A stretch of 57,287 nucleotides of DNA, from contig JARGFK010000001.1 of assembly GCA_029211065.1 (NCBI GenBank), forward strand, positions 101,265 through 158,551. The letters run 5' to 3'. The position numbers and the translations under genes are program-made. The DNA is from Desulfobacterales bacterium. GTDB lineage: Bacteria > Desulfobacterota > Desulfobacteria > Desulfobacterales > JARGFK01. Positions 15,942 through 37,388 of this stretch are shown here, piece by piece. Positions within the stretch are counted from its first letter, which is position 1; the number at the start of each line of letters is the position of its first letter. The notes beneath the pieces are model-generated. The model ran no database searches. It had not been told where the DNA came from and saw only the letters and a list, made by a program, of their open reading frames with translations.

Positions 15942-17480
15942 CTACAGGCTTTCATCCGCAACCACCGGATGCGCCTTGAGGTATTCGAGCCGGTTCAGAC
16001 CGTTGATGTAGGCCTTGGCACTGGCGGTTATGATATCAGGGTCTGCGCCTTTGCCGAGTGCCAGCAGGCCATTCTCTCTCAGGCGCACCGTGACTTCTCC
16101 CATTGCATCGGTACCGCCGGTGAGGGCGCTGACCGAAAATCTCAACAATTCTGAGCCCGTATCGGTCAGTTTTGCGATGGTGTTGTAAACCGCGTCAATG
16201 GGGCCGTTGCCGTACCCGGCGCCTTTGACGGAGCGATCTTTGATTAAAAGTTTCACGCTGGCCATTGGCAGAACCGTCGTTCCGCTGATGACATGCAGGT
16301 ATTCCAGCCGAAAGATATCGGCGGTTCGCAGAATCCCTTCTGCCACTATAACTTCCAGATCTTCATCCACCACATGTTTTTTCTTGTCCGCCAGTTCCTT
16401 GAATTTTACAAAAACCAGTTGAACCTCTTCGTCGGAAAGATCGTATCCCAGGTCTTTGAGGTGTTCGCGCAGGGCGTGGCGACCGGAATGTTTGCCGAGG
16501 ATCATCTTGTTCTTGCTGAGTCCGATGGTTTCCGGCTTCATGATTTCGTAGGTCATGGGGTTTTTCAAGACGCCGTCCTGATGAATTCCGGCTTCATGGG
16601 CAAACGCATTGGCGCCGACAATCGCCTTGTTGGGCTGCACGATGATGCCGGTGATCATGCTCACCAGCCGGCTGGTGTGGTAAATCTGGTCTGTCCGGAT
16701 GCCGGTGGTAACCGGAAGAAAATTCGGCCGGGTATGAAGGGCCATGACCACTTCTTCCAGAGAGGTATTGCCGGCCCTTTCGCCGATGCCGTTGATGGTG
16801 ACTTCGGCCTGCCGGGCGCCGGCATTGATGGCCGCGATGGTATTGGCCGTAGCCAGGCCGAGATCGTTATGGCAGTGAACGCTTAAAACAGCCTTGTGGA
16901 TGTTGGGCGTATGGGTCATGACATATTTAACAAGGCTTTCGAATTCCTGGGGAATGGCATACCCGACGGTATCCGGCAGGTTGACGGTTGTGGCGCCGGC
17001 TTCAATGGCCGCTTCGAATACCTTGCACAGAAAGTCCCGGTCGCTGCGGGAGCCGTCCTCGGCTGAAAATTCAATATTTTCTGTGAGGGATTTGGCGTAC
17101 CTGACGGACTCCACCGCCTTTTTGACCACCTCATCCCTGGACATTTTCAACTTGTATGTCATGTGGATGTCCGAGGTGGCGATGAAGGTATGGATGCGTG
17201 GTTTGGCTGCGTTACGAATCGCTTGCCAGGCCCGGTCGATGTCTTCTCTGGAAGTGCGCGCCAGACCGGCTATTTCGATTCCTTTTATTTTATTTGCGAT
17301 GGATGAGACCGCATCAAAATCACCTTCGGATGCAGCCGGAAAACCGGCTTCCAGCACATCCACCCCCAGTTTTTCCATCTGGGAGGCCAGTCGCAGTTTT
17401 TCAGCGGTGTTCATGCTGGCGCCGGGGGATTGCTCGCCGTCCCGCAGGGTCGTGTCGAAAATAATTACTTTGTCGCTCAT
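15942..17480 (-). CDS. leuA: 2-isopropylmalate synthase
   Basis: 512 aa, ATG at 17480 after AAGGAGCAAATAAC. The N-terminal TIM barrel starts VIIFDTTLRDGEQSPGASMN, with the metal-binding motif SVHCHNDLGLATANT and VTINGIGERAGNTSLEE. The C-terminal allosteric LeuA dimer domain includes LPMASVKLLIKDRS and GNGPIDAVYNTIAKLT. It condenses 2-oxoisovalerate with acetyl-CoA, the first leucine-specific step, and is normally feedback inhibited by leucine. It is the last gene of the ilv/cim/leu series. leuB, leuC and leuD are not in the window. Confidence 0.97.
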   Translation of the reverse strand: MSDKVIIFDTTLRDGEQSPGASMNTAEKLRLASQMEKLGVDVLEAGFPAASEGDFDAVSSIANKIKGIEIAGLARTSREDIDRAWQAIRNAAKPRIHTFIATSDIHMTYKLKMSRDEVVKKAVESVRYAKSLTENIEFSAEDGSRSDRDFLCKVFEAAIEAGATTVNLPDTVGYAIPQEFESLVKYVMTHTPNIHKAVLSVHCHNDLGLATANTIAAINAGARQAEVTINGIGERAGNTSLEEVVMALHTRPNFLPVTTGIRTDQIYHTSRLVSMITGIIVQPNKAIVGANAFAHEAGIHQDGVLKNPMTYEIMKPETIGLSKNKMILGKHSGRHALREHLKDLGYDLSDEEVQLVFVKFKELADKKKHVVDEDLEVIVAEGILRTADIFRLEYLHVISGTTVLPMASVKLLIKDRSVKGAGYGNGPIDAVYNTIAKLTDTGSELLRFSVSALTGGTDAMGEVTVRLRENGLLALGKGADPDIITASAKAYINGLNRLEYLKAHPVVADESL

Positions 17481-17802: not shown

Positions 17803-19431
17803 TCAGCCTTCGGTCTTCAGCCTATTTGGCTGTTCTTTCCCGGCCGATAGTTTATAATGGAAGCTGTCTGCCAGCGCCTGCCAGCTTGCTTCGATGATAT
17901 CTTCGGATACGCCGATGGTGCTCCAGATGTTATCCTGGTCCCGGGATGCGATAATCACCCGGACCTTGGCAGCGGTTCCATCCCTTCCGTCGATGACGCG
18001 AACCTTGAAATCGACCAGTTGCATGCTGTCGAGATGGGGGTAAAACTTATCCAGCGCCTTGCGCAGGGCGTTGTCCAGGGCGCTGACAGGTCCGCTGCCT
18101 TCGGCGGCGGTGATTTCCTCCTGGCCCTCAACTGAAATCTTGATGGTTGCATGGGCTGAACAGGGTTTGTCCTTGTCCTTTTCAATGGTGACCCTGAAGG
18201 ACTCCAGTTCAAAAAGGGGTTGGAACTGTTTCGTAAACTTTTCTACCAGAATCTTAAACGACCCATCGGCCACATCAAACTGGAACCCCTGCTGTTCCAG
18301 TTTTTTAATTTCCGAGACAATGCGGCTGCTGTCAAATCCGTTGGCGCCGAGTTCAACCCCCAGTTCTTTGGCTTTATATTCGATATTGCTTTTACCGGAA
18401 AGGTCTGAAATCAGCACACGGCGCTCATTTCCGACGTCTTCAGGGGTCATGTGCTCGTATGCCATGGGGATTTTCATGATGGCATTCACATGAATGCCGC
18501 CTTTATGGGCAAACGCGCTGTTGCCGACAAACGGTCGCGTGGTCAGGGGGATCATGTTGGCGGTCTCGCTGACAAAACGGGATATTTTTTTCAGTTTTAC
18601 CAGATTTTCCGGTGTAACGCAGGGCCGATTCATTTTTAAGGAAAGAATCGGAATGATCGACGTCAGGTCGGCATTGCCGCACCTTTCGCCGTAACCGTTG
18701 ATGGTGCCTTGGACCATTACCGCGCCGGCCCGTACCGCAGTGATCGAATTGGCCACCGCCAACCCGCAGTCATTATGGGCGTGGATGCCGATTTTGATTG
18801 GCAGCGGCCTGTTCGGTTCTAAACGGAAATAATCACGCAAAGCGTTTTCGACTTCATTGATAGTCGCTTTTATTTCAAAAGGGAGCGTCCCGCCATTGGT
18901 GTCGCACAATACAACGGTGTCGGCGCCGCCCTTGAGCGCGGCAAAGACGGTTTCTACGGCGTAATCACGGTTGCCTTTAAACCCGTCGAAAAAATGCTCC
19001 GCATCGTAGATGACATCACGGTCCTGTTGCTTTAAATAACCGATCGTCTCTTTAATCATGGCCAGGTTTTCATCCAGCGAATTGTACATGACCTGTTCGA
19101 CGTGCAGGTCCCAGCTTTTACCGAATATGGTGATGGCCGGGGTGTCGCTTTTGATCAGTTCCGTCAGGTTTTGATCGTCTTCCGGGTGAATGCCCGGTTT
19201 TCGGGTGGAACCGAAGGCCGTTAATTTGGCGTTTTTCAACTCGGCCTTTTTCGCCAGTTTAAAAAACTGCTTGTCCCGGGGATTGGAACCCGGCCAGCCA
19301 CCTTCTATGTAATGAATCCCCAGGTCATCCAGCCGTTGAGCGATCCTGATTTTTTCTTCCGCGCTGAAATTGATGTTTTCACCCTGGGTGCCGTCTCTTA
19401 AGGTGGTGTCGTACAGCAGTATCGGTTCCAT
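17803..19431 (-). CDS. cimA: (R)-citramalate synthase
   Basis: 542 aa from the ATG at 19431; an in-frame ATG at 19464 is the alternative. It is a LeuA-like barrel (LYDTTLRDGTQGENINFS, IHAHNDCGLAVANSI, GTINGYGERCGNADL) with the citramalate-synthase feature HYIEGGWPGSNPRD and a C-terminal LeuA dimer domain. It makes citramalate from pyruvate and acetyl-CoA, opening the threonine-independent isoleucine route. Its location inside the ilv block supports this. The last residues (NRLKTEG) and the stop codon are encoded by a CTGAAG intergenic repeat. Confidence 0.93.
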   Translation of the reverse strand: MEPILLYDTTLRDGTQGENINFSAEEKIRIAQRLDDLGIHYIEGGWPGSNPRDKQFFKLAKKAELKNAKLTAFGSTRKPGIHPEDDQNLTELIKSDTPAITIFGKSWDLHVEQVMYNSLDENLAMIKETIGYLKQQDRDVIYDAEHFFDGFKGNRDYAVETVFAALKGGADTVVLCDTNGGTLPFEIKATINEVENALRDYFRLEPNRPLPIKIGIHAHNDCGLAVANSITAVRAGAVMVQGTINGYGERCGNADLTSIIPILSLKMNRPCVTPENLVKLKKISRFVSETANMIPLTTRPFVGNSAFAHKGGIHVNAIMKIPMAYEHMTPEDVGNERRVLISDLSGKSNIEYKAKELGVELGANGFDSSRIVSEIKKLEQQGFQFDVADGSFKILVEKFTKQFQPLFELESFRVTIEKDKDKPCSAHATIKISVEGQEEITAAEGSGPVSALDNALRKALDKFYPHLDSMQLVDFKVRVIDGRDGTAAKVRVIIASRDQDNIWSTIGVSEDIIEASWQALADSFHYKLSAGKEQPNRLKTEG

Positions 19432-19508
19432 CTCGTTTATCTCTCCAAGTTGTTTGAGATTCATTTGCCGGTCTTGCGTTCCGGCGCGAAGCTAAAAAAG
19501 AAGCAAGC

Positions 19509-19759: not shown

Positions 19760-20815
19760 TTAGTATTTCTTCCGATTTTCCGGCCGCAGGGCCCGCACGG
19801 CAGCACCGGCCCGCCACATTTCGGAATTTCTTAAGGTGGTCAGTTCCTTTTGCAGCTTTTCACGGTAATCGGCCGCGCTGTTTACTTCCAGTACCCGTTT
19901 GCATTCGGCGCCTGAAGCGACCCGATCATAGAGCGCATTGAACACCGGCGCCACCGCATCCCGGAATTTCGGCGCCCAGTCCAGCGCTCCCCGCTGGGCG
20001 GTGGCGCTGCAGTTTGCGTACATCCAGTCCATACCGTTTTCCGCTACCAGCAGGATCAGGCTCTGGGTCAGCTCTTCCACGGTTTCATTAAACGCTTCAC
20101 TGGGGGTGTGGCCGTGTTTGCGCAGCAGCCCGTATTGGGCTTCCATCACACCCGCCAGACAGCCCATCAACACACCGCGTTCTCCGGTCAGGTCGCTGAA
20201 GACTTCTTTTTCAAATGTCGTTGGAAACAGATATCCCGACCCGATGGCGATCCCCAGGGCGATGGTGCGTTCCTTGGCCTTTCCGGTATAATCCTGGTGA
20301 ATGGCAAAGCTGGAGTTAAGACCGCTGCCTTCCAAAAAGTTTGTGCGCAGGGTGGTTCCGGAACCTTTGGGGGCGACCAGGATGACATCGACAAAATCCG
20401 GCGGGATGATGCCGGTCTGGTCTTTGTACGTAATTGAAAACCCATGGGAAAAGTAAAGTGCATCCCCTTTATTCAGACATTTTTTTATCTGCGGCCAGGT
20501 GGCCTTCTGGCCGGCATCCGACAGCAGGTTTTGGATGACCGTTCCTTTTTTTGCGGCTTCTTCAATGGGAAAAAGTGTTTTGCCCGGCACAAAGCCGTCT
20601 GCCACGGCACGGTCCCAGGATTTGCTTTTTTCGCGCTGTCCCACAATAACGTTAATGCCGTTGTCCCTCAGGTTCTGAGACTGCCCGGGACCCTGGACGC
20701 CATATCCCAGCACCGCCACCGTTTCATTTTTCAATACCTCCCGGGCACGGTCCAGGGGGAATTCCTCTGCTGTGATGACTTCTTCCAATACGCCGCCAAA
20801 ATCAATAGTTGCCAT
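19760..20815 (-). CDS. ilvC: Ketol-acid reductoisomerase
   Basis: 351 aa, ATG at 20815 with GAGGATATTTTAC upstream. The NADPH fold has VAVLGYGVQGPGQSQNLRDN with GQREKSKSW as the cofactor loop, and the metal/substrate part has FSDLTGERGVLMGCLAGVME and HTPSEAFNETVEELTQSL. The GVQGPGQ variant of the usual GSQGHAH loop marks a distinct subgroup of the enzyme. It converts acetolactate or acetohydroxybutyrate to the dihydroxy acids in valine and isoleucine synthesis. It lies downstream of ilvH in the same direction. Confidence 0.97.
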   Translation of the reverse strand: MATIDFGGVLEEVITAEEFPLDRAREVLKNETVAVLGYGVQGPGQSQNLRDNGINVIVGQREKSKSWDRAVADGFVPGKTLFPIEEAAKKGTVIQNLLSDAGQKATWPQIKKCLNKGDALYFSHGFSITYKDQTGIIPPDFVDVILVAPKGSGTTLRTNFLEGSGLNSSFAIHQDYTGKAKERTIALGIAIGSGYLFPTTFEKEVFSDLTGERGVLMGCLAGVMEAQYGLLRKHGHTPSEAFNETVEELTQSLILLVAENGMDWMYANCSATAQRGALDWAPKFRDAVAPVFNALYDRVASGAECKRVLEVNSAADYREKLQKELTTLRNSEMWRAGAAVRALRPENRKKY

Positions 20816-21009: not shown

Positions 21010-21498
21010 CTATTTGGGTTCGCGGTACAGTGCGATGATGCCTGTTTTTGCGATTTCCTTTATCCCGATGGGCTTGAGCAGGCTCATTATCGCCGCCAGT
21101 TTCCCTTCATCGCCGGTTATCTCAATGGTGTAATGCTCCAGCCCCACATCCACCACCTTGCATCGAAATATATCGACGATCCTTAAAATTTCAGCGCGAT
21201 TCTCGGGTTTGGCTTTTACTTTAATCAGTGCCATTTCCCTTTCAACATACGCGGTGCCGGTGAGTTCGTGCACCTTAATGACATTGATCAGCTTATTGAG
21301 CTGCTTATTGATCTGCTCGATTCCCAGGGTGTTGGCTTTGGTGACTATCGTGATCCGGGACACCAAAGGCTCCGTGGTTTCGGCTACGCAGAGACTCTCT
21401 ATATTGTAGCCTCGGCCGCTGAAGAGTCCTGCGATTCTGGAAAGCACGCCCGGTTGATTGTCCACAAGAATTGAAAGCACGTGTTTTTCTGCTGTCAT
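21010..21498 (-). CDS. ilvH: Acetolactate synthase small (regulatory) subunit
   Basis: 162 aa. The N-terminal ACT domain is clear: HVLSILVDNQPGVLSRIAGL, then FSGRGYNIESLCVAET and LVSRITIV. A C-terminal domain includes IVDIFRCKVVDVG. It binds the catalytic subunit encoded just upstream and confers activity and valine sensitivity. About 50 bases separate it from ilvB. Confidence 0.96.
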   Translation of the reverse strand: MTAEKHVLSILVDNQPGVLSRIAGLFSGRGYNIESLCVAETTEPLVSRITIVTKANTLGIEQINKQLNKLINVIKVHELTGTAYVEREMALIKVKAKPENRAEILRIVDIFRCKVVDVGLEHYTIEITGDEGKLAAIMSLLKPIGIKEIAKTGIIALYREPK

Positions 21499-21548: not shown

Positions 21549-23234
21549 TCACACCAGCAGCATTTCCGTAATCGGCGCACCGGCGGGTACCATCGGATAG
21601 ACGCACTCTTCTCTTTCAATGACAAAATCCATGATAACGGTTTTAGGTGAAAAAAGACCTTCCCTGAGAACCGCTTCAACCTCTTCCGGTTTTTGGGCCC
21701 TTAAGCCGACGGCGCCATAAGCCTCGGCCAGTTTCACAAAATCAGGGGCATGCTCCACAAGGGTGCAGGCGTAGCGTTTTTCGTAGAAAAATTCCTGCCA
21801 CTGTCTCACCATGCCGAGAAATCCATTGTTTAGAATAACGATTTTAACCGGCAGGCAGTACTGAACGGCCGTTGCCATCTCCTGGATGTTCATCTGGATG
21901 CTGGCGTCTCCGGCAATATCGACCACCAGTTTGTCCGGAAAGGCGATTTGGGCGCCGATGGCGGCAGGGAGTCCGAAGCCCATGGCGCCGAGCCCGCCGG
22001 ATGTGAGAAGGTGCTGGGGGTTGTCGAAATGATAGTATTGCGCGGCCCACATCTGGTTCTGGCCGACTTCGGTGGAAATAATCGCATCGCCCCGGGTCAG
22101 TTCATACAGTTTTTCAACCACGTATTGGGGTTTGATGACAGCGCCCTGCTGATAGGCAAAGGGCTGGGTCTTTTTCCAATCTTCAATCTGATCCAGCCAG
22201 ATTTTTCGTTTTTTTTGAACATCACTCAGATCCGTTTCATCCAGGAGTTTGTTCAGATGGGTCAGGGTGATCTTACAGTCTCCCACAACCGGGACGGCAA
22301 CCGGTATGTTTTTACGGATGGATGTCGGGTCGATGTCGATATGGACAATCTTGGCATGGGGCGTAAACGTATCGGTTTTGCCCGTAACGCGGTCGTCAAA
22401 CCGGACGCCCACGGCAATCATCAGGTCACATTTGCCGGAGGAGGTGTTGGCCCGGTAGGTTCCATGCATGCCGATCATTCCCATGCACAAAGGATCCGAA
22501 CCCGGGAAGGCGCCCATGCCCATCAGGGAGGTCGTCACCGGGATCTGGGTTTTTCGCGCCAGTTCCGTCAGCTCCCGGGCGGCCTTGGAGAGAAGGACGC
22601 CGCCGCCGGCAAAAATAATGGGCCGTTTGGCTTCCCGTATCAGCTCCACCACCTTATGCAGCTGTTTCATGTTGGGATTGTAGGTGGGGTTGTAGGAACG
22701 CAGCTTTACCGTTTTGGGCGCTTTATATTCAATGGTGTTCTGGACGACGTTTTTGGGAATATCGACTAAAACCGGTCCGGGTCGTCCGGAGCTGGCAATA
22801 AAAAAAGCTTCTTTGATGGTTTGCGCCAGCTCTTCGGTTGAATTGACCAGATAATTGTGCTTGGTGCAGGGACGAGTGATGCCGACGATGTCCACCTCCT
22901 GAAAGGCGTCGTTTCCGATAAGATGGGAAGGAACCTGACCGGTGATGATAACGACCGGAATGGAGTCCATGAAGGCGTTGGCGATACCGGTGATGGTATT
23001 GGTGGCGCCGGGGCCGGATGTCACCAGGCAGACACCGACCCGGCCGCTGGCGCGGGCGTATCCGTCGGCGGCATGAATGGCCCCCTGCTCATGGCGGACA
23101 AAAATGTGCCGCAAATCGCTTCTCAACAGTTCGTCGTAAATATCAATAACACAACCGCCGGGATAACCGAAGATGGTGTCAACCCCTTCGTCCTTCAGTG
23201 TTTTCAGTAAAATCTGTGCACCTGTTAATTTCAT
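21549..23234 (-). CDS. ilvB: Acetolactate synthase large (catalytic) subunit
   Basis: 561 aa, ATG at 23234 after AAGGAACAGATT. Thiamine-diphosphate enzyme features: FVRHEQGAIHAADGYARASG with the catalytic Glu, GVCLVTSGPGATNTITGIAN, and the ThDP/Mg motif GDASIQMNIQEMATAV...LNNG. It makes acetolactate from two pyruvates, or acetohydroxybutyrate from pyruvate plus 2-oxobutyrate supplied by the CimA route. Confidence 0.97.
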   Translation of the reverse strand: MKLTGAQILLKTLKDEGVDTIFGYPGGCVIDIYDELLRSDLRHIFVRHEQGAIHAADGYARASGRVGVCLVTSGPGATNTITGIANAFMDSIPVVIITGQVPSHLIGNDAFQEVDIVGITRPCTKHNYLVNSTEELAQTIKEAFFIASSGRPGPVLVDIPKNVVQNTIEYKAPKTVKLRSYNPTYNPNMKQLHKVVELIREAKRPIIFAGGGVLLSKAARELTELARKTQIPVTTSLMGMGAFPGSDPLCMGMIGMHGTYRANTSSGKCDLMIAVGVRFDDRVTGKTDTFTPHAKIVHIDIDPTSIRKNIPVAVPVVGDCKITLTHLNKLLDETDLSDVQKKRKIWLDQIEDWKKTQPFAYQQGAVIKPQYVVEKLYELTRGDAIISTEVGQNQMWAAQYYHFDNPQHLLTSGGLGAMGFGLPAAIGAQIAFPDKLVVDIAGDASIQMNIQEMATAVQYCLPVKIVILNNGFLGMVRQWQEFFYEKRYACTLVEHAPDFVKLAEAYGAVGLRAQKPEEVEAVLREGLFSPKTVIMDFVIEREECVYPMVPAGAPITEMLLV

Positions 23235-23405: not shown

Positions 23406-25076
23406 CTATTTCAACACCGCCCCCTTGCTGCCGGACGAAACCATCCGGGCATATCGGGCCATATATCCGTGGGTGATTTTGGGTTCCGGCGGCGACCAGG
23501 CGGCCAGTCGGTCCTTTATTTCCTGGTCGGATAGTTTCAGGGTTATTGTTTTTGCAGGAATGTCGATGGCTATCCGGTCCCCCTCTTGGACGATGGCGAT
23601 GGGGCCGCCCTGCATGGCTTCCGGTGATATGTGGCCGATGGAAGCGCCGCGGGAGCCGCCGGAAAAACGACCGTCGGTAATCAGGGCCACATGGGCATCC
23701 ATCCCCATGCCGGCAATGGCTGCCGTGGGGCTCAGCATTTCCTGCATTCCCGGCCCGCCCATCGGTCCTTCATACCGGACCACCAGTACATCTCCTTTTT
23801 TAATTTTACCGCCCATGATGGCCTGGCTGACCGCCTCCTCAGAATCAAACACACGCGCCGGGCCTTCATGCCGCAGCATTTCCGGCAATACCGCGGATTG
23901 CTTCACCACGCACCCCTGGGGCGCCAGGTTGCCGAAAAGAATCGCCAGGCCGCCTTCGGCATGGTAGGGATTGTCCAGCGAATGAATAACGTCGGCATCC
24001 AGCACTTTAACGTTTTGAATGTTTTCGGCAACACTGGCGCCGGTCACGGTCAAACAGTCCGTGTGGATCAGGCCGCTTTCGGAAAGCACCTTGATGACGG
24101 CGGGTACGCCGCCGGCCCGGTTTAAATCCTCCAGATGGTGCCGGCCGCCCGGGCTCATGGAACAGAGGTGCGGCGTTTCCCGGCTGACTTCATTGATCAG
24201 ATTCAGGTCCATGCTGAAGTGCGCTTCATCGGCCAGCGCCGTCAGGTGCAAAACCGTATTGGTGGAGCACCCCAGGGCCATGTCCACACGCAGGGCGTTT
24301 TTAAAGGCCTTGTCCGTCAGAATTTTTGAGGGGGTGATCCCCCTGTTAAACAGGTCCAAAATCCGCATGCCGGCTTCTTTGGCCAAACGCAGCCGGGCGG
24401 ACATGACCGCCGGGATGGTGCCGTTGCCGGGCAGGGCCAGGCCGATGGCTTCGGACAGGCAGTTCATGGAGTTGGCGGTAAACATTCCGGCGCAGGACCC
24501 GCAGGTGGGGCAGGCGGCGTCTTCGTAAGCAGCCAGCTCCGTTTCGGTCATTTTGCCGGAACGAACGGCGCCGACGCATTCAAACACCGTAATCAGATCG
24601 ATTTTCTTGCCGTGGGGCTTCCCGGGTTCGGTTCCGGCCAGCATGGGGCCGCCGCTGATGACGATACTGGGCAGATCCAGCCGGGCGGCCGCCATCAACA
24701 TCCCGGGAACGATCTTGTCGCAGTTGGGAACCAGTACCAGGGCGTCAAATGCGTGCGCCACTGCCATGACTTCGATGGAATCGGCAATCAATTCGCGGCT
24801 GCCGAGCACATATTTCATGCCGACATGATTCATGGCGATGCCGTCACAGATGCCGATGGTCCCGAACTCGATGGGTGTTCCGCCTGCCATGTAAATGCCG
24901 GCCTTGACGGCATCAACGATTTGATTCAGATGGGAATGGCCCGGTATGATCTGATTGGCTGAATTGGCGATGCCGATGAGCGGGCGCTCTATTTCAGCGT
25001 CGGTATAGCCGATCGCTTTGAAAAGGGAACGATGGGGAGCTCTTTCAACGCCTTTTTTGACACTGTCGCTTTTCAT
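23406..25076 (-). CDS. ilvD: Dihydroxy-acid dehydratase
   Basis: 556 aa, ATG at 25076 after AGGAGGTTTTAAA. Fe-S ligand motifs are present: [12 protein letters not shown] and [20 protein letters not shown]; the C-terminal [19 protein letters not shown] is diagnostic. It dehydrates dihydroxy acids to 2-oxoisovalerate and 3-methyl-2-oxovalerate. It is the first structural gene after the attenuator at 25092-25256, so its transcription should set the level of the whole ilv/cim/leu series. Confidence 0.97.
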
Positions 25077-25091
25077 TTTTAAAACCTCCTG

Positions 25092-25132
25092 AAAAAAAAA
25101 CCGTTATCAGTTTTGGGCTGATAACGGTTTTA
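25092..25132 (-). terminator. Attenuator (terminator) hairpin of the ilv operon
   Basis: On the minus strand AACCGTTATCAG pairs with CTGATAACGGTT across an 8-nt loop, and a run of at least nine U follows (A-run 25092-25100 on the plus strand). It ends about 15 bases before the ilvD start codon, after the leader peptide gene. The upstream strand of this stem (25116-25127) can instead pair with 25161-25172, which overlaps the leader stop codon. Confidence 0.93.
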
Positions 25133-25160
25133 TTAAGTGATGATGAGATTTGGTTTTAGG

Positions 25161-25239
25161 CCATTATCAACCCTGTGCCTCGTAGTTGGGAAGTACACCG
25201 ACTACGAGGAGAATAATTAGGCTAATAAGGTTGATAAGG
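25161..25239 (-). promoter_or_regulatory. Alternative pairing segments 1 and 2 of the ilv attenuator
   Basis: Segment 1 (minus-strand CCTTATCAACC, 25229-25239) pairs with segment 2 (GGTTGATAATGG, 25161-25172). Segment 2 also pairs along 12 bases, with two G-U pairs, with segment 3 (CCGTTATCAGCC, 25116-25127), which is part of the terminator stem. Thus 1:2 plus 3:4 terminates, and 2:3 antiterminates. A further internal stem CTCGTAGT/ACTACGAG lies in the leader codons. Confidence 0.85.
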
Positions 25240-25256
25240 GCCGGTCCGGTTCTCAT
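25167..25256 (-). CDS. Branched-chain amino acid leader peptide (ilvL-like)
   Basis: A 29-codon frame on the minus strand reads MRTGPALINLISLIILLVVG, then VLPNYEAQG and a TGA stop. Thirteen of the 29 residues are Leu, Ile or Val, all between residues 7 and 22. This is the composition expected of a ribosome-stalling leader for an operon making all three amino acids. A weak ribosome site (TTGGAT) precedes the ATG. The stop codon lies inside the antiterminator segment, so a ribosome that finishes the leader blocks antitermination. Confidence 0.88.
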   Translation of the reverse strand: MRTGPALINLISLIILLVVGVLPNYEAQG

Positions 25257-25285
25257 TTTTATATCCAAAATTGTTTTAAGAATAA

Positions 25286-25317
25286 ATTTTATTAAATGAA
25301 TTTAATGCGTTTGTCAA
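25286..25317 (-). promoter_or_regulatory. Probable promoter of the ilv operon
   Basis: A perfect minus-strand TTGACA (25312-25317) lies about 56 bases before the leader ATG, followed by an AT-rich tract TTTAATAAAATTT holding possible -10 boxes (TAATAA at 17 nt spacing, TAAAAT at 20 nt). The exact -10 box is uncertain. Confidence 0.55.
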
Positions 25318-25373
25318 GGTTTATTTAGCAGGCCGAAAAAAATCAGACATATGGGCTGAAAGGGGGAGTAAGG

Positions 25374-25457
25374 AATTGATGATTTGTGATTGTTGATTGG
25401 CGATTGGAAAACCTTATATCACAAATCAACAATCAACAATCAACAATCAACAATCAG
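25374..25457 (+). repeat. GATTG element with expanded right arm
   Basis: Left arm TTGATGATTTGTGATTGTTG, then a short core and a nearly perfect tandem of AATCAAC units (CACAAATCAACAATCAACAA and onward to CAATCAG). The tandem purity suggests recent unit expansion. It lies between the ilv leader and the 3' end of topA. Confidence 0.8.
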
Positions 25458-25477
25458 AGCTTCCCAGCATTTGGCCA

Positions 25478-27757
25478 TTACTCGTCACTTTTTTTCTGCT
25501 TATACCCGCAGCCTTCTTTCAGGCAGATGTAGTAGTCGCCCTGTTTTTTGCTGGATTTCTCAACCAGCATCCCGGCGCCGCACGTAAGGCATTGACGCGC
25601 AACCGGTTTATCCCAGATCGCAAAGGTGCAGTCGGGAAAACGGCTGCAGCCGTAAAAGATTTTGCCGCGTCTTGATTTCTTTTCCAGCAAGTGACCGTCG
25701 CAGCCCGCCTGGGGGCAAATGATGCCGGTATCCTGGCCGTTTCCATTGGCATTCAGGGATTGGGCGTTTTTACAATCCGGGTAGCCGCTGCAGGCCAAAA
25801 ACCGGCCGAATTTGCCCTGTTTCACCACCATCGCTTTGCCGCATTTTTCACAGATCTTGTCCGTTGCTTCCGTTTCGGCAACTTCGACGGGTTGGATCAT
25901 CCCTTTTTCATCCCGGGTGTAGTCGCTGGAATAGGTGCAATCCGGGTAGCCGCTGCAGGCCAGGAAATGTCCATTTTTTCCGACTTTGATATGAAGCGCC
26001 TTGCTGCATTGCGGACAGGCCAGTCCCGTGGAAAAACCAACGCCTTTGACGCTGAGCATATCCGTAGCGGCCGCATCGATTTTTTCTTTAAAAGGTTCGT
26101 AAAACCTTCCTATAAGCGCTGTTGCATCAGCTTTGGCAGACTCGACACGGTCGAGGTCTTCCTCCATTTTAGCCGTAAACTCCACGTCCAGCAGGTCGGG
26201 AAAACTTTCCACCAGCAGATCGTTGACAATAAAGCCGAGTTCCGTCGGCCTGAAATACCCTTTCAGCAGTTCCACGTAGCCCTTTTCCCGGATGGTGGAT
26301 AAGATGGCGGCATAGGTGCTGGGGCGCCCGATTCCGTTTTCCTCAAGCTCCTTGACCAGGGAGGCCTCGGAAAATCTGGGGGGCGGGAGCGTGAAGTGCT
26401 GTTTGGGCTCAAGTTTATCTATCTTCAGAATCGTACCGGGCGTGAGGGGCGGCAGCGTTTCTTTTTTATTTTCATTTTCAATATCATCATCGGCGGAGCG
26501 GTACAGGGTCATGAATCCTTGAAATTTTACGGTTGAGCCGCTGGCATTAAAGCGGTAAGGGCCGGCTTTAATGGAAACGGAATTCTGATCGATGAGGGCT
26601 TCCTTCATCTGGGAGGCGACAAATCGCTGCCAGATCAGACGGTATAACGCCATCTGATCCTTGGAAAGAAAGGCGGAAACATCATCGGGGGTATGCAGAA
26701 CCGATGTGGGCCGGATGGCTTCATGGGCGTCCTGGACTTTTTTGCGGTTTTTGAAAAATCTGGGTTTATCCATCACATATTCGGCCCCGAACCGCTTGCG
26801 GATCAGCTTGAGCGCTTCCTGGGCTGCTTCAGCCGCAATCCGGGTTGAATCGGTGCGCATATAGGTGATCAGCCCCACCGGCTCGCCCGGCCCCAGATCG
26901 ATGCCTTCATAGAGCTGCTGGGCGATGACCATGGTTTTTTTGGCGGTAAATCCGAGCTTTCGAATGCTTTCCTGCTGAAGCTTGCTGGTGGTAAACGGCG
27001 GCAGGGGATTTCTCTTGACGGTTTTCTTCAAGACCCTGTCTACAATCAGCTGATGATCCGCCAGTTCTTTCAAGACCGCATCGGCCTCCTGTCCATTGCC
27101 GATGCGAATTTTTTTATCGCCTTTTTTGACCAGTTTGGCCGTAAAGGGGGGCGGCACGTCGCCCTCAAGGTGGGCGGTAATCGACCAGTACTCTTCCGGA
27201 TTAAAGGCCTGAATGGCCCGCTCCCTGTCACAGATGATGCGTACGGACACCGACTGAACACGCCCGGCGCTGAGTCCGCCTTTAACTTTGCGCCACAGCA
27301 GGGGAGACAGTTGATATCCCACCAACCGGTCAAGAATCCGGCGGGCCTGCTGGGCCTCGTATTTGTGGGGGTGCAGCTCTTCGGGTGCGGCGATGGCGGC
27401 CTTGATGGCATTGGGGGTGAGTTCATGAAACAGAACCCGGTGGAACCGCCGGTCTTTCTTCTTCAGGATTTCAGCGGTATGCCAGGCAATGGCTTCTCCT
27501 TCCCGGTCCGGGTCCGCCGCCAGATAAATGTCGACAGCGTTTCCGGCCGCTTTCTTTAATGCGGAGATGACTTTTTGTTTGCCGGGAATGCTGACATATT
27601 TGGGTTTAAATCCGGCTTCGATATCTATACCCATCTCGTTGGACGGCAGATCCTTGATATGTCCGATGGTTGCGGCAATGTTATAGCCGCTGCCCAGATA
27701 CTTTTTTATGGTTCTTACCTTTGTCGGTGATTCAACAACAACCAGTGGTTTTGTCAC
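25478..27757 (-). CDS. topA: DNA topoisomerase I
   Basis: 759 aa. TOPRIM start KPLVVVESPTKVRTIKKYLG with the DPDREGEAIAWH acidic motif; active-site tyrosine in GLITYMRTDSTRIA. The C-terminus has four zinc-ribbon repeats: CPQCSKALHIKVGKNG, CEKCGKAMVVKQGKFG, CPQAGCDGHLLEKKS and CLTCGAGMLVEKSS. It relaxes negative supercoils. Its start overlaps the end of dprA by 4 bp, a pairing common across bacteria. Confidence 0.98.
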   Translation of the reverse strand: MTKPLVVVESPTKVRTIKKYLGSGYNIAATIGHIKDLPSNEMGIDIEAGFKPKYVSIPGKQKVISALKKAAGNAVDIYLAADPDREGEAIAWHTAEILKKKDRRFHRVLFHELTPNAIKAAIAAPEELHPHKYEAQQARRILDRLVGYQLSPLLWRKVKGGLSAGRVQSVSVRIICDRERAIQAFNPEEYWSITAHLEGDVPPPFTAKLVKKGDKKIRIGNGQEADAVLKELADHQLIVDRVLKKTVKRNPLPPFTTSKLQQESIRKLGFTAKKTMVIAQQLYEGIDLGPGEPVGLITYMRTDSTRIAAEAAQEALKLIRKRFGAEYVMDKPRFFKNRKKVQDAHEAIRPTSVLHTPDDVSAFLSKDQMALYRLIWQRFVASQMKEALIDQNSVSIKAGPYRFNASGSTVKFQGFMTLYRSADDDIENENKKETLPPLTPGTILKIDKLEPKQHFTLPPPRFSEASLVKELEENGIGRPSTYAAILSTIREKGYVELLKGYFRPTELGFIVNDLLVESFPDLLDVEFTAKMEEDLDRVESAKADATALIGRFYEPFKEKIDAAATDMLSVKGVGFSTGLACPQCSKALHIKVGKNGHFLACSGYPDCTYSSDYTRDEKGMIQPVEVAETEATDKICEKCGKAMVVKQGKFGRFLACSGYPDCKNAQSLNANGNGQDTGIICPQAGCDGHLLEKKSRRGKIFYGCSRFPDCTFAIWDKPVARQCLTCGAGMLVEKSSKKQGDYYICLKEGCGYKQKKSDE

Positions 27758-34750: not shown

Positions 34751-34784
34751 AGTGATTGGGGAACGATTCTGGAGGACATCAGGA

Positions 34785-37388
34785 ATGGATCAAAAGTACG
34801 ACCCGAAACGGGTTGAATCTAAATGGCAATCTCACTGGGAAAAAACCGGGCTGTTCCGGGTCACGGAAGATCCGGACCGGGAAAAATTTTATCTGCTTGA
34901 AATGTTTCCGTATCCATCCGGCAAGATTCACATGGGGCATGTGCGAAACTATACCATCGGGGATGTGGTGGCGCGCTACAAGCATATGCGGGGGTTTAAT
35001 GTGCTGCACCCCATGGGCTGGGACGCTTTCGGGATGCCCGCGGAAAACGCGGCCATCGCCAACAATACCCATCCGGCCAGATGGACCTATGAAAATATTG
35101 ATACCATGCGGGCGCAGCTCAAGCGGATGGGGTTCAGCTACGACTGGGACCGGGAAATCGCAACCTGCAAGCCCGCGTACTACCGCTGGGAGCAGTGGCT
35201 TTTCCTGAAGATGTTTGAAAAGGGAATGGCCTATCGCAAGGAGTCCTTTGTAAACTGGTGCGAACCCTGCCAGACAGTGCTTGCCAACGAGCAGGTCGAA
35301 GCGGGGATGTGCTGGCGCTGCGGCCGTGCGGTTCGTCAGAAAAAACTCTGGCAGTGGTTTTTCCGGATTACGGACTATGCCGATGATCTGCTGGTCTATT
35401 GCGACAAACTGCCCGGCTGGCCCGATAAAGTCATTGCCATGCAGAAAAACTGGATCGGAAAGAGCCATGGCGCCGAGATTCGTTTTTCCATTGAAAATCC
35501 CCCGGCGGACGCGGAGCGGACGATCTCTGTTTTTACCACCCGCCAGGATACGGTGTTCGGCGCGACCTTCATGTGTCTGGCGCCGGAGCACCCCCTGGTG
35601 ACCCAGTTGGCCAAAGGGACTGCCCAGGAAGCGGCGGTCAACAGCTTTGTCGAACGGATGGCCCTGTCGGATCGGTCCAGCAAGGCGGTGGAAACCTACG
35701 AAAAGGAAGGCGTGTTTACCGGTGCTTACTGCATCAATCCCCTCAGCGGGCGCCGGATGCCGATTTATACCGCCAATTTCGCCCTGATGGAATACGGCAC
35801 CGGCGCGGTCATGTCGGTGCCGGCCCACGATCAGCGCGACTTTGATTTTGCTAAAAAGTACGGCCTCGACATCATTGTCGTGGTAGCGCCGCCGGACAGT
35901 GATCTTGATCCGGCCGCCATGGCCGCAGCCTATGCCGGGGAGGGAACCATGGTGAATTCCGGCCGCTTTGACGGCATGAAAAACGTCCAGACACTTGATG
36001 AAATTGCAGCCCACCTTGAAGCCAACGGTCTGGGTAAGAAAACCGTCAGTTTCAGATTAAAAGACTGGGGGATTTCCCGGCAGCGCTATTGGGGCGCACC
36101 GATTCCCATCGTGCATTGCCGGGATTGCGGCATTGTGCCGGTTCCGGAGGACGAACTCCCGGTGGTCCTGCCTGAAACCGTCAGCCTGCTGGAAGGCGGG
36201 CGCTCGCCCCTGCCGGTTCTGGAACACTTTCAGAAAACGGCCTGCCCGAAATGCGGCCGCAGCGATGCGAAACGGGAAACCGACACCATGGATACGTTTG
36301 TGGAGTCATCCTGGTATTTTGAACGCTATTGCAGTCCGCACCATGAGCGGGGGATGTTTTCCAAAAGCGCGGTGGATTACTGGATGCCGGTGGATCAGTA
36401 TATCGGGGGGGTTGAACATGCCATTCTGCACCTGCTTTATTCCCGCTACTATACCCGGGTGCTGCACGATTTCGGGTTGATAGGGGTCAAGGAACCGTTT
36501 ACCCGGCTGTTGACCCAGGGGATGGTTTGCAAGGAAACCCTGTCCTGCCCGGAGCACGGTTTTCTCTTTTCCGGCGAGGTTTCCGGCAACGATAATGAGC
36601 GCCGCTGCAGCAAATGCGGCAAATCCGTTGTCGAGGGCCGTGTTGAAAAGATGTCCAAGTCCAAAAAAAATGTCATCGATCCCAACCAGCTGCTGGACAG
36701 ATACGGTGCGGACACCACCCGGCTCTTCTGCCTCTTTGCCGCGCCCCCGGAAAGGGATCTGGAATGGAGCGAACAGGGAGTGGACGGCGGGTATCGATTT
36801 TTAAACCGGGTCTGGCGCCTGGCTTTCACCTGGATGGACAGCGTTAAGGATCGGACCGCGTTTAGCGGCAATCCGGATGAATTGGAAGAACCCGTGAAGG
36901 GGGTGTATAAAAAAACCCATGAAGCCATCCGCAGGGTCACCGGCGACATAGAAGACCGGTTTCATTTCAACACGGCCATCAGCGCTGTCATGGAGCTGGT
37001 CAATACCATGTACACCATCGACGAGGGGTGCAGTCTCCCGGAAAAAGAAAGCGTCATGCGGTTCGCCATGGAAGCGACCGTATTGTTGCTGTCACCGATT
37101 GTTCCCCATTTTAGCGAGGAAATCTGGGCGGCCCTGGGCCATACGACCAGTGTTTTTTCGGCGAGATGGCCGCTTTATCGGCAGGATGCGCTGGAAAAGG
37201 ACGAGTTGATCATCGTGGTTCAGGTGAATGGAAAACTCCGCTCCCGTTTTCAGGTGAGCGCAGATACCGATGAAAAAATCATTCAAACCATGGCGCTGGC
37301 GGATGAGCGTGTTCAGAAGTTCATCGGGGACGCCCCTGTCAAAAAAGTGATTGTGGTGCAAAAGAAACTGGTGAATATTGTAATATAA
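34785..37388 (+). CDS. leuS: Leucyl-tRNA synthetase
   Basis: 867 aa from the ATG at 34785, after GGAGGACATCAGGA. Class I signature [20 protein letters not shown] (HIGH variant HMGH) and [12 protein letters not shown] (KMSKS). The CP1 editing domain is present ([20 protein letters not shown]). A zinc-type cluster is seen at [12 protein letters not shown]. Full length for a bacterial LeuRS. It charges tRNA-Leu. Confidence 0.98.

Follow-up and report, generated by a model that had tools for sequence, protein, structure and literature searches.

A probable leader-peptide transcription attenuator upstream of the ilvD-ilvB-ilvH-ilvC-cimA-leuA genes of a Desulfobacterales bacterium

Described branched-chain attenuators and the leader upstream of ilvD

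In the attenuators of the enteric ilvGMEDA, leu and ilvBN operons, a branched-chain leader peptide is combined with mutually exclusive 1:2, 2:3 and 3:4 pairings and a U-run. All three are named as attenuators in PMC1183508. The element described here resembles them in its leader codons, its exclusive pairings, its U-run and the branched-chain genes downstream. However, it comes from another bacterial group, one attenuator would stand before ilv, cimA and leuA genes together, and the element matches no Rfam leader family.

The ilvB-II, ilvB-OMG and Actinobacterial ilvB leaders have a branched-chain-rich upstream ORF before ilvB, and attenuation has been proposed for them (PMC10272879; PMC1262725); they precede ilvB, whereas the first gene of the operon studied here is ilvD. 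The ilvB-OMG leaders, reported from various phyla, may overlap the ilvB-type relatives described below. The ilvD motif WRC-18-2 is a structured RNA upstream of ilvD, sometimes with a terminator (PMC8632094); it was described there from Veillonella exclusively and as a weak riboswitch candidate. No published branched-chain attenuator in Desulfobacterota was among the matches listed in open papers, and an earlier mention is possible in Vitreschak 2004 and Lopatovskaya 2010. The mechanism is classical; the family in this phylum has neither an Rfam match nor a listed precedent.

The stretch analysed (the window) comprises 57,287 nucleotides of contig JARGFK010000001.1 of a Desulfobacterales bacterium. 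The element occupies minus-strand positions 25317-25076, between topA (25478-27757, same strand) and ilvD (Table 1). ORF reading confirmed the 29-codon leader frame of the initial annotation, in which 13 of the 16 residues 7 to 22 are Leu, Ile or Val; this short ORF is enriched in codons for the products of the operon. Its UGA stop codon (25169-25167) lies inside segment 2, as had been noted. A predicted intrinsic terminator is found between leader and first gene. The terminator first described there is present with its run of nine T (25100-25092), although its stem (25131-25097) has 14 pairs by terminator scan instead of 12. The antiterminator pairing of 25172-25161 with 25127-25116 has the 12 pairs claimed, two of them G-U, and is mutually exclusive with the terminator. 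The protector does pair with segment 2, over a slightly longer stretch than proposed (25242-25229 with 25172-25159). The inner hairpin within the leader ORF is possibly a pause hairpin. The folding check that had been suggested gave -66.2 kcal/mol for minus-strand 25290-25076, with z = -7.25 and an energy equalled by 0 of 200 shuffles.

Table 1. Positions of the leader element and of the genes downstream, in window coordinates
Feature	Position	Strand	Evidence or remark
-35-like TTGACA, presumed leader promoter	25312..25317	-	sequence reading
Weak -10 TAATAA, 17 bases past TTGACA	25294-25289	-	sequence reading
Leader peptide ORF, 29 codons, MRTGPALINLISLIILLVVGVLPNYEAQG	25167..25256	-	ORF reading
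Segment 1 (protector), GGCCCTTATCAACC, within leader codons	25229..25242	-	fold and pairing in relatives
Inner hairpin CCTCGTAGT / ACTACGAGG, inside leader ORF	25178..25209	-	fold; 74.6% of cells paired
Segment 2, GGGTTGATAATGGCC, common to protector and antiterminator	25159..25173	-	fold, alignment, covariation
Segment 3, terminator 5' arm and antiterminator 3' arm	25115..25131	-	2:3 covariation
Segment 4, terminator 3' arm, then nine-U run	25092..25110	-	3:4 covariation, terminator scan
ilvD, dihydroxy-acid dehydratase	23406..25076	-	TIGR00110, 790 bits; AGGAGG at 25090-25085
ilvB, acetolactate synthase large subunit	21549..23234	-	TIGR00118, 839 bits
ilvH, acetolactate synthase small subunit	21010..21498	-	TIGR00119, 203 bits
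ilvC, ketol-acid reductoisomerase	19760..20815	-	TIGR00465, 306 bits
cimA, citramalate synthase	17803..19464	-	TIGR00977, 722 bits (cut-off 450)
leuA, 2-isopropylmalate synthase	15942..17480	-	TIGR00973, 724 bits

The most probable reading, to which we assign a probability of about 0.93, is that this is a ribosome-mediated (leader peptide) transcription attenuator of the ilvD-ilvB-ilvH-ilvC-cimA-leuA operon. The initial annotation had proposed a four-segment Leu/Ile/Val attenuator before this six-gene series, and gene identification, conserved gene order, a conserved leader and covariation all uphold it.

Short repeats, TTGATTGTTGAT, occupy 25369-25466, between topA and the presumed leader promoter; their sub-threshold microRNA-like Rfam matches were taken as chance. 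A leucyl-tRNA synthetase gene, leuS (34752-37388, plus strand), is encoded on the opposite strand, some 9.4 kb away from the leader.

Gene content, recurrence and reach of the element within the order

Each of the six genes exceeds the cut-off of at least one NCBIfam equivalog. The genome also encodes a threonine ammonia-lyase, possibly a biosynthetic one, on another contig, C149 (434 bits against a TIGR01127 cut-off of 379). The proposal that CimA replaces threonine deaminase is therefore not supported; CimA may instead act in addition to that enzyme. The claim that one sensor covers Ile, Val and Leu synthesis was also too strong, as two leuC-type genes are found on other contigs of the same genome and none of leuB, leuC, leuD and ilvE is among the 20 window ORFs scanned with NCBIfam. 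Since leuC-type genes lie elsewhere, the operon covers only parts of the pathways: the first Leu step, the citramalate step and the steps that Ile and Val share.

Recurrence was assessed in 122 regions upstream of ilvD, one from the window, 12 from named loci and 109 from genomes within the order; 120 are distinct, L008 being identical to L177, and L006 (HyVt-363) to L138, a genome of the searched order. The nearest named IlvD matches, at 74% identity, belong to Desulfobacterales and Desulfobacteraceae genomes. In 111 of the 122 regions, an ORF contained 9 or more Leu/Ile/Val within 16 residues, and a T-run hairpin followed all 111 leaders, L127 being doubtful (probably a wrong leader or terminator). 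No leader was found directly before ilvD in the other 11 (L008, L010, L011, L016, L017, L122, L155, L165, L177, L182, L185), four of which (L010, L011, L016, L017) carry names that do not say Desulfobacterales. A joint leader and terminator detector was applied to the 120 regions with a length of 250 bases or more and recognized 107; among 4096 control windows taken out of these loci it recognized 6, and among 1200 dinucleotide shuffles 2. Testing for the leader only was less specific (110/120 against 147/4096 and 83/1200, respectively). The leader-terminator arrangement is no chance pattern.

With covariance model R1, the element was detected in 252 of 291 genomes of the order (E <= 1e-5), and in 162 of the 173 with a completeness of 90% or more and a contamination of 5% or less. 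Among the 63 attenuator loci with more than 8.5 kb of downstream sequence, the order was exactly ilvD-ilvB-ilvH-ilvC-cimA-leuA in 53; eight had the same set with ilvC moved or not found, and two had other arrangements. Two genomes with cimA upstream of ilvD (G252, G192) have the leader before cimA instead; in three others where cimA is also upstream of ilvD (G275, G137, G063), a leader was looked for and not found.

How far control would extend along the operon is a separate question. Four of its five gene pairs are separated by gaps of 171, 194, 295 and 322 bases, and conserved gene order alone suggests that the six genes may be co-transcribed across them. The gaps would also suit an attenuator acting mainly on ilvD-ilvB-ilvH, with cimA and leuA under promoters of their own in the 295- and 322-base gaps, and internal starts are compatible with promoter-like scans. 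We regard this as unlikely, though deserving of attention, given that the full gene order is retained in 53/63 loci, that terminator-like sites are at background (19 found against 18.3 expected in the region, both strands) and that the cimA-leuA gap has only a weak minus-strand terminator-like site. Nor does the genome contain a second element detectable by R1, which found the leader at 147 bits, the opposite-strand shadow of the same hairpin and two matches with E > 3.

Pairing, coding signatures and ribosome position

The comparison of leaders proposed in the initial annotation revealed compensatory changes in both terminator and antiterminator. In alignment A1 (72 of the 111 leaders, less than 78% identical, including the doubtful L127), where relatedness among sequences inflates covariation measures, 97.3% of cells were paired in the 3:4 terminator, with changes on both sides in 5 of 11 pairs, and 93.1% in the 2:3 antiterminator, with such changes in 7 of 13. 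Cells changed on both sides numbered 47 for 3:4 (18.0 in shuffles) and 20 for 2:3 (3.3 in shuffles), each reached by 0 of 500 shuffles. Sliding one partner by 1-3 columns lowered pairing to 20-60% for 2:3 and 16-46% for 3:4. Pairing in the 1:2 protector amounted to 76.7% of cells. The count of both-side-changed cells exceeded all 500 column shuffles in all four helices, whereas the number of pairs with both-side changes was reached by 75/500 shuffles for 1:2 and 158/500 for the inner hairpin, and the number of pair types in 2:3 by 35/500. When arms were swapped between species, 2:3 weakened from -20.8 to -18.1 kcal/mol and 1:2 from -24.8 to -22.1 kcal/mol, the own pairing beating the mean swap in 92 and 76 of 111 leaders, respectively.

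Strong conservation of both sequence and structure in the terminator and in segment 2 could be explained by a bound ligand, and the hairpins might then belong to a metabolite-, tRNA- or protein-sensing element (riboswitch, T-box or target of an RNA-binding protein) in which the leader ORF is incidental. However, three-way complementarity by itself would constrain the sequence, the Leu/Ile/Val-rich ORF recurs in 111 of 122 regions, and its composition shifts with operon content. Rfam leader, T-box and riboswitch families were rejected, with no window match above the gathering cut-off; the 19 sub-threshold matches in 24900-25500 (E <= 5) include none of these families, and across 20 related loci only two tRNAs reach gathering score. 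A sensing element of this kind is very improbable.

The leaders also carry signatures of coding sequence. Between nearest neighbours, indels were a multiple of three in 68 of 131 cases in the leader coding part, against 39 of 136 in the spacer. Leu codons have moved from CUG to CUU, CUC and CUA: CUG makes up 7% of them in leaders and 40% in ilvD, and CUA 15% and 3%, respectively. In E. coli, CUA was described as the most suitable leu control codon and CUG as less optimal (PMC1183508). If that argument transfers to this group, the codon choice observed here is in line with it; base-pairing needs may be a partial cause of the bias. A Shine-Dalgarno-like motif was present in only 34 of 111 leaders. 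Of 109 relatives, 89 have a promoter-like pair (9/12 matches) no more than 110 bases from the leader, against 341 of 1090 shuffles. Anatomy, conservation, covariation, coding signature and gene content are the parts of the attenuator model that were established directly.

These promoter data bear on a further explanation, in which the hairpin is an ordinary intrinsic terminator of the topA-ilvD interval, the hydrophobic ORF is unrelated to it and ilvD has a separate promoter downstream. A terminator is to be expected there, as topA lies upstream in the same direction, and the promoter-scan listing of the window region lacks the presumed leader promoter. Even so, this explanation is hardly credible: a TTGACA is present upstream of the leader, in the interval from topA to the terminator, and in 90 of 111 relatives it occurs exactly, 20-90 bases ahead of the leader start; the mutually exclusive antiterminator covaries; and the 15 bases from the end of the U-run (25092) to the ilvD start leave so little room that a promoter past the terminator was rejected.

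For the attenuator, we infer leader translation, ribosome stalling, premature termination and co-transcription of the six genes as the remaining parts of the model. With ample charged Leu-, Ile- and Val-tRNA, the ribosome would reach the stop codon inside segment 2 and block that segment; the 3:4 terminator would then form and RNA polymerase would halt before ilvD. Scarcity of one of the three amino acids would stall the ribosome among the sensor codons, covering segment 1 or beyond it, leaving segment 2 free to pair with segment 3, and transcription would go on. If the leader were untranslated, segment 1 could pair with segment 2, and the terminator would form.

Folding models with the ribosome placed at these positions are largely consistent with such a scheme. 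For the window leader, a modelled stall on any of 12 Leu/Ile/Val codons allowed 2:3 to form with 13 expected pairs, the RNA being cut before segment 4. A ribosome modelled at the stop codon is predicted to mask segment 2, with 3:4 paired (13.6) and 2:3 not. Across the 111 leaders, 2:3 formed upon a modelled stall in 110, segment 4 being absent so that competition by the terminator lies outside the model; with the ribosome at the stop, 3:4 had at least 8 expected pairs in 110 and 2:3 fewer than 2 in 88. Modelled without a ribosome, 1:2 beat 2:3 in only 28 of the 111; in the window leader it did so clearly (26.5 against 0.2 expected pairs).

Relatives and sensor composition across Desulfobacterota

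R1 matched 46 of 395 genomes drawn from the phylum (E <= 0.01), some of these being weak matches that are either chance-like or aromatic leaders. Forty contexts were fetched and 30 annotated, leaving aside L237 (no leader found), L248 (a short leader, later restored for composition counts), L254, L272 and L274 (aromatic), and L268-L271 and L273 (taken as chance). Alignment A2 holds 28 of the 30 annotated non-order leaders, the near-copies L253 and L265 being left out. Model R2, built only from leaders outside the order, matched 47 phylum genomes (E <= 0.001), 15 inside the order and 32 outside, and recovers the window leader with E 9.6e-12. Outside the order, the element is followed by cimA, cimA-leuA, leuA, ilvB-ilvH(-ilvC) or ilvD-ilvB, and once by an acyl-CoA dehydrogenase gene.

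For composition, leaders could be assigned to 47 of 48 loci; L245 had its leader shortened by automatic start choice, and L317, L318, L320 and L321, from 20 further regions, were kept out of the counts. A leader before cimA was looked for in L318, L320 and L321 and not found. Mean numbers of Ile/Leu/Val per leader were 7.7/2.0/1.4 before cimA only (n=20), 5.9/9.5/3.4 before cimA-leuA (n=11), 5.2/2.7/3.7 with ilvB first (n=6), 6.6/4.6/3.2 with ilvD first (n=5) and 4.0/6.7/5.7 with leuA first (n=3), and 5.9/4.9/4.0 in the 111 ilvD leaders of the order set. The Leu fraction was 0.15 for cimA only (n=18; L319 and L322, where ilvD follows cimA, left out) against 0.51 for cimA-leuA (n=11), with a p of 1.2e-4 that ignores relatedness. 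With relatedness likewise ignored, the Val fraction was 0.09 for cimA only, 0.28 with ilvB first and 0.27 in the 111. Within single genomes, the ilvB leader had more Val than the cimA or cimA-leuA leader in G323 (6 against 0), G662 (9 against 1) and G467 (4 against 1).

There are real exceptions. In G642, Val is absent from the ilvB leader and occurs once in the cimA leader; in G660, the ilvB leader has a single Val. In G534 and G492, the leaders before leuA are rich in Val (four Leu, seven Val) and no Leu-richer than the cimA leaders of these genomes, which have 6 and 5 Leu. L245 has a Leu-rich leader before cimA and no leuA within the fetched stretch, L267 has a leader with four Leu, and Val is also common in cimA-leuA leaders. 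Leader composition often tracks operon content, with Ile prominent in most loci with cimA only, and Ile plus Leu before cimA-leuA; as similarity to the models was the basis on which these loci were selected, this is to be taken as suggestive only.

Somewhat short of even odds, we tentatively propose that one attenuator chassis runs through Desulfobacterota, in which mainly the sensor codons would be re-programmed upon operon rearrangement. The core of this chassis would be the shared segment 2 and the terminator, GATAATG ... CCGUUAUCAG ... CUGAUAACGG. Its sensors might be Ile runs before cimA, a zone of Ile and then one of Leu before cimA-leuA, more Val before several ilvB operons, and mixed Leu/Ile/Val codons before the operon in the window. 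The family offers many natural variants on one scaffold, in a phylum without a listed branched-chain attenuator precedent. A sensor composition that often tracks operon content would allow the weighing of inputs by multi-amino-acid attenuators, and the choice of particular synonymous codons, to be tested by comparison. The covariance models can be used for annotating such operons and may reveal unrecognised genes of the same regulon.

Several leaders of related type were noted along the way. A branched-chain-type leader, MNNNYANIIIIIRAIGIALSLLPVIMGIQRKPPDLIM, at position 138 of L247 (G592), precedes acyl-CoA dehydrogenase and electron transfer flavoprotein genes (335-1477 and 1553-2314), which are not known branched-chain biosynthetic genes. 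A marine biofilm genome (L070:4838-4978) has the leader MNFNRHIDHIILWISLIILLVDRREGAV before ilvD, followed by ilvB, ilvH, ilvC and cimA, with an R1 E of 0.00042. Leaders of a similar type with different hairpins precede ilvB in Oligosphaera ethanolica and in a Verrucomicrobia, a Christensenella and a Clostridiales genome (L040, L061, L041 and L079, respectively); they match R1 weakly (E 0.0013 to 0.48), and R2 matches three of the four. Tyr/Phe-rich leaders with terminators also occur in Desulfobacterota (YYFFYY in L254, YYYFYYY in L272, YYFYY in L274) and are probable aromatic attenuators: that of L254 lies before a shikimate kinase-like gene (below its cut-offs) and chorismate synthase, as does that of L274, judged by sequence only, and that of L272 precedes DAHP synthase.
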